DNA of 64,000 nt from contig JAHECY010000001.1 of assembly GCA_024641505.1 (NCBI GenBank), positions 124,001-188,000 of the forward strand, read 5' to 3'. The notes beneath the pieces are model-generated. The model did not search any database. It saw only the letters and a program-made list of their open reading frames with translations, and was not told where the DNA came from. Both the position numbers and the translations under genes were made by a program. Below are positions 53,651-57,733 of this stretch, piece after piece. The stretch's first letter is position 1. Every line of letters starts with the position of its first letter. This DNA is from Gammaproteobacteria bacterium (GTDB taxonomy: Bacteria > Pseudomonadota > Gammaproteobacteria > SG8-11).

Positions 53651-54484
53651 ATGTCCAATGGTGGCATGCAATCAGCGTTGACCAGTGCCGTGCTCCGCCT
53701 GCTGAAGCCGCTAGTGCGTATTTTGCTGCGTCACGGCGTAGCCTTTGGCGGCTTCAGCGAGTTGGTGAAGCGCGCTTACGTGGAAGTGGCATTTGAAGGG
53801 TTTGACGTCAAAGGCAGAAAACAAACCGATTCACGAGTGGCGACGCTCACCGGTTTGTCTCGCAAGGAGGTCAAACGCATCAAGGAGCTGCCTGAAGAAC
53901 ATGATAGTGAATCGATTGTGCGTTATAACCGTGCGGCACGCGTTGTGTTCGGATGGGTGCACGACGAACGCTATCAGCGGCAGGATAGGGAATCCCTGGA
54001 TTTGGCTTTTGACGGTGCCGAGACCTCGTTCAGCAGTCTGGTAAAAGAATACAGCGGTGACGTGCCGCCGCGCGCAATCCTGGATGAGCTGCTGCAAGTT
54101 GGAGTAGTAAGCCGCGACGCCAATGGCAATATCCACCTGCTCAAACGTGCCTATATCCCTTCCGCCGGCAAGATCGATTTGATGGCCTATCTCGGTGTCG
54201 ATGTCGGTGGTCTGCTCGCGACCATGGATCATAACATTCATGAGCTGGGTCCCGAGCCGTATTTTCAGCGCAAAGTCTATTACGACAATATACCTGAAGA
54301 AACTCTGGTGCAGTTACGCGCCATGGTGCGCGACAAAGGCCAACCGATACTGGAAGAGTTCGATAAATGGCTGGCGCAGCACGATCGTGATGTGAATCCG
54401 AAGATTAAAGGCACTGGCCGTAAAGGCGCCGGAATCGGGATTTACTATTTTGAAAATGATGAAGACGAGGAGCCTCGTTCATGA
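53651..54484 (+). CDS. DUF6502 family protein
   Basis: Protein of 277 residues recognised as DUF6502 from its N-terminal half: LLKPLVRILLRHGVAFGGFSELVKRAYVEVAFEGF, then SRVATLTGLSRKEVKRIKEL, which reads as a helix-turn-helix. No signal peptide or membrane helix. The C-terminus is basic and then acidic (ending in ENDEDEEPRS). It overlaps the DUF5666 lipoprotein gene by ATGA, so the two are co-translated and likely work in one process. The function is unknown; regulation of its partner is a reasonable guess. Confidence 0.82.
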   Translation: MSNGGMQSALTSAVLRLLKPLVRILLRHGVAFGGFSELVKRAYVEVAFEGFDVKGRKQTDSRVATLTGLSRKEVKRIKELPEEHDSESIVRYNRAARVVFGWVHDERYQRQDRESLDLAFDGAETSFSSLVKEYSGDVPPRAILDELLQVGVVSRDANGNIHLLKRAYIPSAGKIDLMAYLGVDVGGLLATMDHNIHELGPEPYFQRKVYYDNIPEETLVQLRAMVRDKGQPILEEFDKWLAQHDRDVNPKIKGTGRKGAGIGIYYFENDEDEEPRS

Positions 54485-55854
54485 AACGCCTTGCAATAAT
54501 CGTTGGTACCGTTGTGGTACTGCTATTGAGTGCCTGCGGAGGTGGTGAGACCGGTACCGGCCAGGTGCCGGGAAAAGATCTTGCCATTGGCACCATTACC
54601 GGATTTGGCAGCGTATTTGTCAATGGTGTGGAATTTGAAACCACCGGCACTGACATCTCACTGGAAGGCAACATAATAACCCAGAATGAATTGCGCATCG
54701 GTATGGTGGTGCAGGTGCAAGGCACCATCAATGCTGATGGTGTCAGCGGCAACGCGAGCAGTATTGTGGCGGAAGAAGAAATAAAAGGCGTTATCGATGC
54801 CATTATCAATGGCAGCGCGCTTGTCGTACTTGGCCAGACGGTGCAAATCGGGCCGGATACCCGGTTCGAGGAAGCTGCCGCTATCACAGATTTGCAGATT
54901 GGCGATATGGTGGATGTCAGCGGCTATCTTAAGCAGGAAGGCATAATTGTCGCCACCCGTATCGAAAAGAAAAGCACCATGGATACACCGAAGGTCATCG
55001 GTATCGTCCGCAATCTGGATGTCAATACACATACCTTCGTACTTGCCGCATTGACCGTGGATTATAGCGCTGCAGAAATCGAGGGTTTCACGGGCAACCG
55101 TCTTTCCGAAGGTGGTCTGGTGGCCGTCAGCGGGCAGGCGGGCGGCAGTGGCATGCTCATAGTTGCGGAAAAGATAAAAGGGCGCAGTAGCGTGCTGCCG
55201 GATGCGGATGAGTTTACGCTGGAAGGTTTTGTCACGGATTACGTTTCCGCCGCGTCCTTTGCCGTGAATCATATCCCTGTTCATACTAATGCGTTGACCG
55301 AATTTGATGGCGGTTTATCTGGAGATGTTGCGCTGGGTGCCAAACTTGAAGTAGAAGGCACACTGACCGACGGTGTGTTATTGGCGCAACATGTCAGTTT
55401 TGGTGAAAGTATTAAAATAGCGTCGCAAGTCGCGTTGGTCGACACGTCTGCCAAATCCTTCACTTTGGTCGGCATGGAAGGGATATCTTTGGCGGTGAAT
55501 GTCAACACGGAGGTTTCCGGTATCAGCCAGTTCTCTGCCTTACTCCCGGGTCAATTTGTCAAGGTCCGAGGTAATCTCACCGGCAATGGGCAAGTACTTA
55601 CCACTAAGTTGGAAGTTGACGCAGAGGGGAGTGAAGTGGTGCTCCAGGGCGCGGTAACTGCGGTACAGGACCCTGCGGTGACTATTTTAGGCGTTGCTAT
55701 CGACACTGCTCTGTGGGCCGACGAGCAGTTCGAGGGGGGCGCTGAAGCAGGTCGCCAGGGCTTTTTCTCTTCGTTAGCGCCCGGTGACTTGGTCAACGCC
55801 AATGGTGCCCTCGTCAACGGCGTGATCCAGTGGGATTCCCTGTCATTGGAATAA
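54481..55854 (+). CDS. DUF5666 repeat lipoprotein
   Basis: Lipoprotein of 457 residues. The signal peptide ends in LLLSACGGG (lipidated Cys19). The rest is a chain of about six repeats of 60-70 residues, each with a strand pattern like IGTITGFGSVFVNGVEFET or VIGIVRNLDVNTHTFVLAALTVDYS, recognisable as DUF5666 and probably OB- or beta-barrel-like. It should sit in the envelope. Its function is unknown. A second, damaged copy follows about 190 bases downstream in the same frame. Confidence 0.85.
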   Translation: MKRLAIIVGTVVVLLLSACGGGETGTGQVPGKDLAIGTITGFGSVFVNGVEFETTGTDISLEGNIITQNELRIGMVVQVQGTINADGVSGNASSIVAEEEIKGVIDAIINGSALVVLGQTVQIGPDTRFEEAAAITDLQIGDMVDVSGYLKQEGIIVATRIEKKSTMDTPKVIGIVRNLDVNTHTFVLAALTVDYSAAEIEGFTGNRLSEGGLVAVSGQAGGSGMLIVAEKIKGRSSVLPDADEFTLEGFVTDYVSAASFAVNHIPVHTNALTEFDGGLSGDVALGAKLEVEGTLTDGVLLAQHVSFGESIKIASQVALVDTSAKSFTLVGMEGISLAVNVNTEVSGISQFSALLPGQFVKVRGNLTGNGQVLTTKLEVDAEGSEVVLQGAVTAVQDPAVTILGVAIDTALWADEQFEGGAEAGRQGFFSSLAPGDLVNANGALVNGVIQWDSLSLE

Positions 55855-56040: not shown

Positions 56041-56931
56041 TCCACTTCAGACGTCAAAGCCGCCAGTCATAGTGGCGAAGAAATCGAAGTCAAGGGCGTG
56101 ATCTCCGAACTGAACGACACAAGTTTCATGCTGGGCGGCTTGACCGTGGATTATAGCGGCGCCCAGACAGAGATTACCCTGGCCGATGGGCTGTATGTGG
56201 AAGTGAAATCCACTCAACCGTTGACCGGCAGCACCCTGATTGCCAGTAAAGTTGAAATGCAGGAGGACGGTAAGAAAGGTGAAGCAGGTACTGAAGGCGA
56301 AGAACTTGAGCTCCAGGGAGTGGTAACCACAGGCTTGTCTGGTGAAGCATTTGGATTAAATGGCCAGACCGTGATGATCAATGGCGACACTGAATTTGAA
56401 CATGGCACTGACGCGAGCTTGCTGGCAGGCACCTTCGTGAAGATGGAGGGGGAATTCAATCAGGATGGGGTGCTGGTGGCCAAGAGCGTCAATTTCGAGA
56501 ATGAAGGTGATAATCAGATCAAAGCTTTCGTCACCAGCAAAGGCGACGGTACCATCAATGTTCTGGGGCTGACTATCAACATCAATAACAGTACCACCAT
56601 GGTGGATGAGCAGGATGAAGGCGTGGTACCGGTGCGCTATTTCAGTCTGGCGGACATCCACGACAACGACTATGTGCAGCTGGATGTCTATCGGGATGAC
56701 GCCGGTAATCTGATCGCGACGCGCCTGCAGCGTGATGATGCGGCCGGTCATGTGACCGAGGTGCAGGCCAAACTTGATGCGGAAATCACTGCAGGTGATG
56801 CCCGCTTTACCCTGCTGGGCGTTACCGTGATTACCAATGGCCATGGTATCGATGCGCTGAGCGGCGATGAAATCACCGTTCAGGGTGATTTCAATAATGG
56901 AGCATTGACCGCCAGCGTCATTGGCAACTAG
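56041..56931 (+). pseudogene. 5'-truncated DUF5666 paralogue
   Basis: The frame opens right after an in-frame TGA (56038-56040) and already codes for repeat-like protein (ASHSGEEIEVKGVISELND) before any possible start; the first start-like codon is GTG 56098. There is no signal peptide or ribosome site. Four DUF5666 repeats remain (for example FMLGGLTVDYSGAQTEI), homologous to repeats of the gene upstream, with an exact 19-base match covering L-T-V-D-Y-S. It is best read as the 3' part of a tandem duplicate that lost its 5' end. The intact remaining frame may mean that the loss is recent or that the piece is still translated. Confidence 0.7.
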
Positions 56932-56956: not shown

Positions 56957-56982
56957 AGCGGCCTACGGGCCGCTTTTTTTTT
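56957..56982 (+). terminator. Rho-independent terminator
   Basis: AGCGGCC and GGCCGCT form a 7-base stem with a 4-base loop, followed by a run of nine Ts. It lies 26 bases after the truncated DUF5666 frame and marks the end of that transcript. Confidence 0.88.
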
Positions 56983-57121
56983 GGGAAAAAATCACACCAT
57001 TTTCACTCAAAATAGCGTCGTTGAGGTGCCGTCCGAAGGCATAGGATAGTCCCATGCAGTCAAGAAACAGTGTCTCTGCATTGATACTAAACTTCATCAA
57101 TTGTTATAGGAGGAAATAACC

Positions 57122-57364
57122 ATGAGTCATGAATCTTTGAAATCCGGCGGTGACGCTTTCAATCAGGGTTTAGCGGGTTCCCAGTCCGGCAATGTGGACA
57201 GTGCCGGGGTCGGCACCGGTCTGGGAGTGCTGGGCTCTTTGGGGCTTGGTCTGGGTGGCTCTGCAGCCGCCAGCGGTTGGGCCGGTGTTGCGCAAGGTCA
57301 GGAAGCCAAAGGCGGCGATGTTGCTGATAACACTTCCATCGGTGACGTCAATATCAACACCTAA
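57122..57364 (+). CDS. Small glycine-rich protein 1, unknown
   Basis: Protein of 80 residues with no recognised family. About a third is glycine; there is no cysteine and no classical signal peptide. The layout is N-terminal LKSGGDAFNQGLAGSQSGNV, then a hydrophobic Gly/Leu/Ala stretch (GVGTGLGVLGSLGLGLGG), then a C-terminal tail GGDVADNTSIGDVNINT. TAGGAGG sits eight or so bases before the ATG, a very strong ribosome site. A paralogue with the same layout follows after 39 bases. Secretion without a signal peptide, a bacteriocin-like peptide or an assembly subunit are all possible. Confidence 0.75.
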   Translation: MSHESLKSGGDAFNQGLAGSQSGNVDSAGVGTGLGVLGSLGLGLGGSAAASGWAGVAQGQEAKGGDVADNTSIGDVNINT

Positions 57365-57403
57365 GACTTACACTTACATCATTTGACAAATAAGGAGATT
57401 ACC

Positions 57404-57676
57404 ATGAGCGACATATTCGAAGTGGGCGCCCCCGGGCATCAAGGCAACCTGAAATCCGGTGGTGACGCCGGCAATATCGGGGCCGCGGGGTCGGCGTCAG
57501 GCAATGTTGACAGCTCCGGAGTGGGTGCTGGCATCGGGGCCCTGTTAGGCGCCGGCCTGGGCGGTGGTTTCAGTCTCGCGGGCAGTGGTGATGCCTATAC
57601 CGGGCAACACCAGTCAGCCAATGGCGGCGATGTGGCGGATAACACCAGCATCGGTGATATCAACATCAATACCTAA
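57404..57676 (+). CDS. Small glycine-rich protein 2, unknown
   Basis: Paralogue (90 residues) of the gene just upstream, with ten more residues at the N-terminus (MSDIFEVGAPGHQGN). The shared blocks are LKSGGDAxNxGxAGSxSGNVDSxGVG and the C-terminal GGDVADNTSIGDININT. The middle hydrophobic stretch GIGALLGAGLGGGFSLAG keeps its composition but not its sequence. TAAGGAG precedes ATG 57404. A strong terminator follows, so the two genes form one short transcript. The function is unknown. Confidence 0.75.
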   Translation: MSDIFEVGAPGHQGNLKSGGDAGNIGAAGSASGNVDSSGVGAGIGALLGAGLGGGFSLAGSGDAYTGQHQSANGGDVADNTSIGDININT

Positions 57677-57701: not shown

Positions 57702-57733
57702 ACGCGGCACCATGGGGTGCCGCGTGTGTTTTT
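57702..57733 (+). terminator. Rho-independent terminator after the glycine-rich pair
   Basis: ACGCGGCACC and GGTGCCGCGT make a perfect 10-base stem with a 4-base loop, followed by GTGTTTTT. It closes the two-gene unit and separates it from convergent recN. Confidence 0.88.

Follow-up and report, generated by a model that had tools for sequence, protein, structure and literature searches.

The window, a 64,000-nucleotide stretch of a Gammaproteobacteria MAG (4.78 Mb in 222 contigs), encodes a pair of small glycine-rich proteins (Table 1). An earlier note on this DNA had described both reading frames, their ribosome-binding sites, and a terminator, and we found all of these in place (AGGAGG, AAGGAG, and a 10-pair hairpin with a T tract). 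Neither protein contains cysteine or has a signal-peptide-like start, in agreement with the same note. It had also assigned the pair to no known family; searches of Pfam and NCBIfam likewise returned zero matches for the window proteins even at E ≤ 10, and the small proteins had no relative in the PDB at E ≤ 1. The R-body (RebB) family, considered as a candidate for small multicopy proteins, was ruled out because there was no Pfam or NCBIfam match.

Table 1. Positions of the paired genes and associated features in the window
Feature	Position	Strand	Description or basis
Precursor-like protein 1	57122..57364	+	80 aa, Gly-rich; ORF with strong RBS; family member, orphan
Precursor-like protein 2	57404..57676	+	90 aa from ATG at 57404, Gly-rich; strong RBS; orphan
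N-terminal block K-S-G-G-D, protein 1	57140..57154	+	K and D/E invariant in family
N-terminal block K-S-G-G-D, protein 2	57452..57466	+	Family alignment
C-terminal tail GGDVADNTSIGDVNINT, protein 1	57311..57361	+	All 37 proteins keep the D and T of D-N-T
C-terminal tail GGDVADNTSIGDININT, protein 2	57623..57673	+	Sequence and family alignment
Shine-Dalgarno AGGAGG, protein 1	57108..57113	+	Sequence
Shine-Dalgarno AAGGAG, protein 2	57392..57397	+	Sequence
Terminator hairpin, 10 pairs, then T tract; 3′ of pair	57702..57725	+	
41-bp upstream element, consensus GGGWAWWWWTCACAYY...	56982..57022	+	Leave-one-out matrix scan

The two proteins share the tail GGDVADNTSIGD(V/I)NINT. Eight of the last 17 codons differ between protein 1 and protein 2, and seven of these differences are silent (including a TCC/AGC serine change), the sole replacement being V/I; the codon comparison reproduces the count given previously. 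The tail and the N-terminal block are the most constrained parts of the proteins (pN/pS of 0.22 and 0.28, respectively, vs 0.53 in the middle, for ten proteins of this genus), and the low value in the tail, together with the silent codon changes, bears out the strong selection that had been proposed for it. An old duplication had been proposed as well. The family is indeed old and present in many copies, but proteins 1 and 2 are not sisters: their mutual identity is ~65–68%, compared with 75% between protein 1 and the copy carried by contig C53 and 70% between protein 2 and the C204 copy.

In the sister species (genus mate UBA6920, G001), the order DUF6502 - DUF5666 - recN is the same, but the site is empty: neither the pair nor an additional, partial DUF5666 copy occurs there. 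The window has a DUF5666 lipoprotein gene at 54481-55854, and the second, partial DUF5666-like ORF (56098-56931), which has no signal peptide and is missing at the equivalent G001 site, adjoins the inserted pair.

Conservation and Distribution of the Protein Family

Seven members of the family are encoded in the host genome. C115 carries the window pair, C169 a tandem pair, and C204, C53, and C158 a single copy each. G001 has four members. The profile search that the earlier note had suggested recovered homologues with the same N-terminal block and tail in at least 12 other genomes, from Magnetococcales and other Pseudomonadota, and because both blocks recur in this way, the pair is not a product of chance. 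All carriers identified are MAGs. In the three genomes of other genera in the same taxonomic family, we found neither the family nor the ATP-grasp ligase described below (ligase A), a joint absence that favors the graspetide-like interpretation proposed in the Discussion.

Family proteins are ~77–91 aa long and glycine rich (22%–42% Gly), and are often encoded in tandem. A conserved block lies close to each terminus (K-x-G-G-D on the N side, D-N-T-x-I-G on the C side), and the glycine-rich middle between these blocks is variable. All 37 proteins aligned from 13 genomes (a set that omits one frameshifted copy in G378) fit K-x-[GSA]-G-[DE] ... D-[NQ]-T-x-[ILM]-G-x(5,6)-end, the K and D of this pattern being 41–67 residues apart. 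The only invariant graspetide-competent residues in these 37 proteins are the donors K and T and the acceptors D/E and D, with one donor and one acceptor at each end. The pattern K is the sole lysine in 28 of the 37 proteins, and the columns examined showed no further invariant Ser, Thr, Asp, Glu, or Lys. A C-terminal Ser or Thr is missing in four proteins, the last residue of the family being S, T, G, or F.

The tail had been suggested to act as a sorting or assembly signal. We rejected a sorting tag common to other proteins, because in five genomes the tail pattern occurred only in family genes. G378 has three tandem members on contig C38; one of them (L102:439-698) carries a frameshift, and the neighboring gene for ATP-grasp A is truncated by the contig end. 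The Magnetococcales MAG G273 carries a member (L049:2512-2769) between genes that by eye are larE-like and larB-like, which is an orphan case outside the genus of the window.

Five orphan upstream regions, from four independent loci, share a 41-bp element located 100–130 bp 5′ of the start; besides the window site, it lies at L038:8764, L039:1624, L043:9019, and L044:9244. In a leave-one-out matrix scan, the left-out sites were recovered with 0 to 11 better positions in ~350,000 (3 for the window site and 0 for three of the others). The element is suggestive only, because its register was chosen by eye on TCACA. We recognized no known promoter type in it.

ATP-Grasp Proteins and an Exporter Encoded Beside Family Members

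On C169, the two family members adjoin genes for two ATP-grasp proteins, A (L040:10651-11640) and B (L040:11663-12706). The same contig encodes three outer-membrane efflux (TolC-type) proteins, an FHA protein, HlyD, a PP2C phosphatase, and a 1055-aa ABC exporter with two cNMP-binding domains, membrane and ATPase domains, and a C39 peptidase domain that keeps the catalytic Q, C, H, and D. The HlyD gene is cut by the end of C169 and resumes on C158, where a family member lies directly upstream of it; as the two contigs overlap by 134 bp at 99% identity, they form one continuous locus, and the host genome thus has three members in the locus and four orphans. We found no second such locus in this genome. 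A gene for a HemN-like radical SAM protein (L040:6708-8132) lies downstream of the PP2C gene, and a subtilase gene that could encode a maturation protease (L039:353-1591) lies directly upstream of the orphan member on C53.

A profile of ligase A matched, among PDB entries, PsnB 7DRM (1e-30), MdnC, MdnB, CdnC, 9BOU, and AMdnB; the next match was to the RimK-like alpha-L-glutamate ligase 7QYR (0.006). By these profile matches, ligase A belongs to the graspetide-synthetase clade. Its best NCBIfam model was TIGR04187, ATP-grasp ribosomal peptide maturase (70.6 bits), and its scores lay far below the curated cut-offs of TIGR04184, TIGR04185, and TIGR04187 (MvdC/MvdD, GRASP_SAV_5884), at 52–71 vs 350–475 bits. 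Ligase A keeps the K, QE, and D-x-N positions of ATP-grasp enzymes, and when aligned to PsnB it retains the Lys of the ATP site, Gln-Glu, D/E-x-N, and two Arg. In PsnB, the acceptor carboxylate is probably bound by these two Arg. Homology between A and B is evident (hhalign 99.5%, 20% identity), but in B, Arg replaces the Lys of the KP motif, the metal-binding Asn is mostly Asp, and D-x-N is mostly lost; B is thus probably impaired as an enzyme.

We examined how often the ligase and the family occur together. The ligase A profile detected 7/398 genomes in a phylum scan, and the precursor profile detected the same seven plus G378, in which the precursors lie at a contig end and A begins right 3′ of them. 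Close relatives of ligase A turned up in seven more genomes in class scans; members are adjacent to the ligase in four of these (G872, G980, G486, and G796), and the G1059 contig stops a short way upstream of the ligase gene. No precursor was found near the ligase in G967 or G883, which counts against a graspetide-like system. Overall, family members directly adjoin the ligase in 13/16 ligase-carrying genomes, and B and a type I exporter are usually encoded there too. Two of the three Magnetococcales MAGs have two or three tandem members between B and A and exporter genes upstream of B, and in G273 four members adjoin A in addition to the orphan. Among the first loci examined, all those with sequence for the relevant flank encode B (L040, L045, L050, L051, L068, and L071), as do G872, G980, G486, G796, and G967.

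Viral and plasmid origins were considered and rejected: viral contigs contained no relative of ligase A, and the one remote plasmid match was to a different ATP-grasp. At L053:4991-8593, on a contig that also carries ATP-grasp genes ~20 kb away, there are genes for a PqqD-like protein, an NTP_transf_5 nucleotidyltransferase, a subtilase, and a protein that has no Pfam match and is kinase-like by eye.

Discussion

We propose that the window proteins are likely to be orphan precursors of a graspetide-like (RiPP-like) system that would yield an ATP-grasp-cross-linked, type-I-exported peptide, with the window pair matured in trans. The assignment to the graspetide kind is made by the enzyme and the layout, and not as a proven graspetide: an ATP-grasp ligase of the graspetide-synthetase clade is encoded with the precursors at family clusters, and for the window pair it is encoded in the same genome, in trans. 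Ligase A, perhaps assisted by B, would spend ATP to activate the invariant carboxylates, which would then be joined to the invariant Lys and Thr. In the simplest form, the N-terminal block would be tied to the C-terminal tail around a glycine-rich loop; this connectivity is a guess, although the presence of one donor and one acceptor at each end fits bonds that tie the ends together, and one or two bonds would suit two donors and two acceptors. The product would then leave the cell, the C39 domain possibly cleaving it, and the window pair, which lacks linked machinery, would be processed by the single C169/C158 locus.

The earlier note had proposed looking in other genomes for a linked exporter and had suggested that the pair may be an undescribed secreted or self-assembling system. 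An exporter (ABC-C39, HlyD, and TolC) is encoded at sister loci, so the link to secretion stands, and the family is apparently undescribed; the conserved ends, because an ATP-grasp is encoded beside the family, are more likely to be cross-linking substrates than a sorting or assembly signal alone. Several observations count against a graspetide-like system. The leader motif Phhx(1,2)h, a non-obligatory feature, is not conserved in the family alignment; the tail is nearly invariant, whereas graspetide cores often vary; ligase A scores far below the NCBIfam cut-offs; GG occurs in both conserved blocks, but the context is noncanonical for C39 cleavage and the usual hydrophobic residues before the GG site are missing; and the window pair lies on a different contig from the machinery.

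The family might instead consist of exported structural or adhesive self-assembling glycine-rich proteins, with the ATP-grasp pair acting otherwise, for example in RimK-like C-terminal amino-acid addition of the kind known for ribosomal protein S6. The proteins are long and conserved rather than short cores, the glycine-rich middle is silk-like, and there are many copies with a near-invariant C terminus, all of which would suit such a role. We nevertheless consider it unlikely, because the ligase profile favors graspetide synthetases (1e-30) over 7QYR (0.006), and because it is the C-terminal residue that varies and the internal K, D/E, D, and T that are fixed. A further and rather unlikely scheme is that ligase A links the Lys of one protein to the tail Asp of the next (or to its own), which would create an isopeptide-bonded fiber or coat, or very large lariats, with the scattered orphan genes feeding one machine. 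If true, the use of an ATP-grasp as a polymerizing cross-linker of extracellular material would be new for this enzyme class.

It is very unlikely that the small proteins are bacteriocins or microcins with double-glycine leaders, cut by C39 after GG and exported as short unmodified toxins or signals. The linked C39 exporter with its intact catalytic set and the GG in both blocks are compatible with this, but within this genus only a very short, variable stretch precedes the first GG (e.g., MPLKSGG), the second GG lacks the usual hydrophobic residues in front of it, we recognized no immunity gene, the small proteins match nothing in Pfam, and the linked ATP-grasp would be left unexplained. Also very unlikely is that the pair is a non-functional stray duplicate kept by chance after a segmental insertion, as the empty site in the sister species and the partial DUF5666 copy directly upstream might suggest, because the open frames, strong ribosome-binding sites, terminator, common upstream element, and silent tail codon differences (seven of eight) indicate continuing selection.

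The graspetide-like interpretation can be compared with known systems. Plesiocin cores are repeated Thr/Glu. Ligase A is homologous to the plesiocin enzyme PsnB and keeps its ATP-grasp motifs and two Arg positions, but the similarity is remote, the family precursors differ from that of plesiocin, and the loci described here add a degenerate B, a full type I exporter, three TolC-type proteins, and FHA. The microviridin system (MdnA with MdnB and MdnC) resembles ours in having two ATP-grasp proteins per locus, and both MdnC and MdnB match the profile; in our system, however, Arg replaces the KP Lys of the second ATP-grasp, whose D-x-N is mostly lost, and the precursors have no PFFARFL leader motif and are glycine rich with conserved ends. 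The fuscimiditide synthetase joins N- and C-terminal stem tags around loops of 4–258 residues (PMC12291112), and the cross-linking of N-side and C-side stems around a loop in ThfA/ThfB (PMC12291112) is comparable to the conserved ends and variable middle seen here. Unlike our family, fuscimiditide uses only Thr and Asp as donors and acceptors, and we noticed no O-methyltransferase in the family loci. The rosaritide system (MirA-D, graspetide group 21) combines a graspetide synthetase with a PpiC-type protein and a C39 ABC exporter (PMC13097080), and a PpiC-domain protein is encoded upstream of HlyD in L068. Rosaritide is actinobacterial, no HlyD or TolC is described for it (PMC13097080), and its partner is the PpiC-type MirC, whereas here ATP-grasp B is the more constant neighbor.

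Graspetide surveys list, in their main texts, 174 families (PMC8939145) and 43 groups (PMC13097080), report the leader motif in about half of graspetide precursors (PMC8939145), and include C39 exporters, HlyD, and PpiC-type partners (PMC8939145, PMC13097080). The same main texts make no mention of Magnetococcales, cyclic-nucleotide-binding, FHA, or TolC, and an unnamed survey group may include the present system, as the comparison is with main texts only. A search for literature naming RiPPs together with Magnetococcales returned nothing relevant.

The proposed interpretation would give a divergent branch of graspetide-synthetase-like enzymes, found in Gammaproteobacteria, Magnetococcales, and other Pseudomonadota, its own precursor family; this branch comes with a full type I exporter and, as a possible partner, a degenerate second ATP-grasp. 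Members that lie far from the maturation locus, such as the window pair, would be missed by neighborhood-based mining, and the four invariant residues make the predicted chemistry directly testable.
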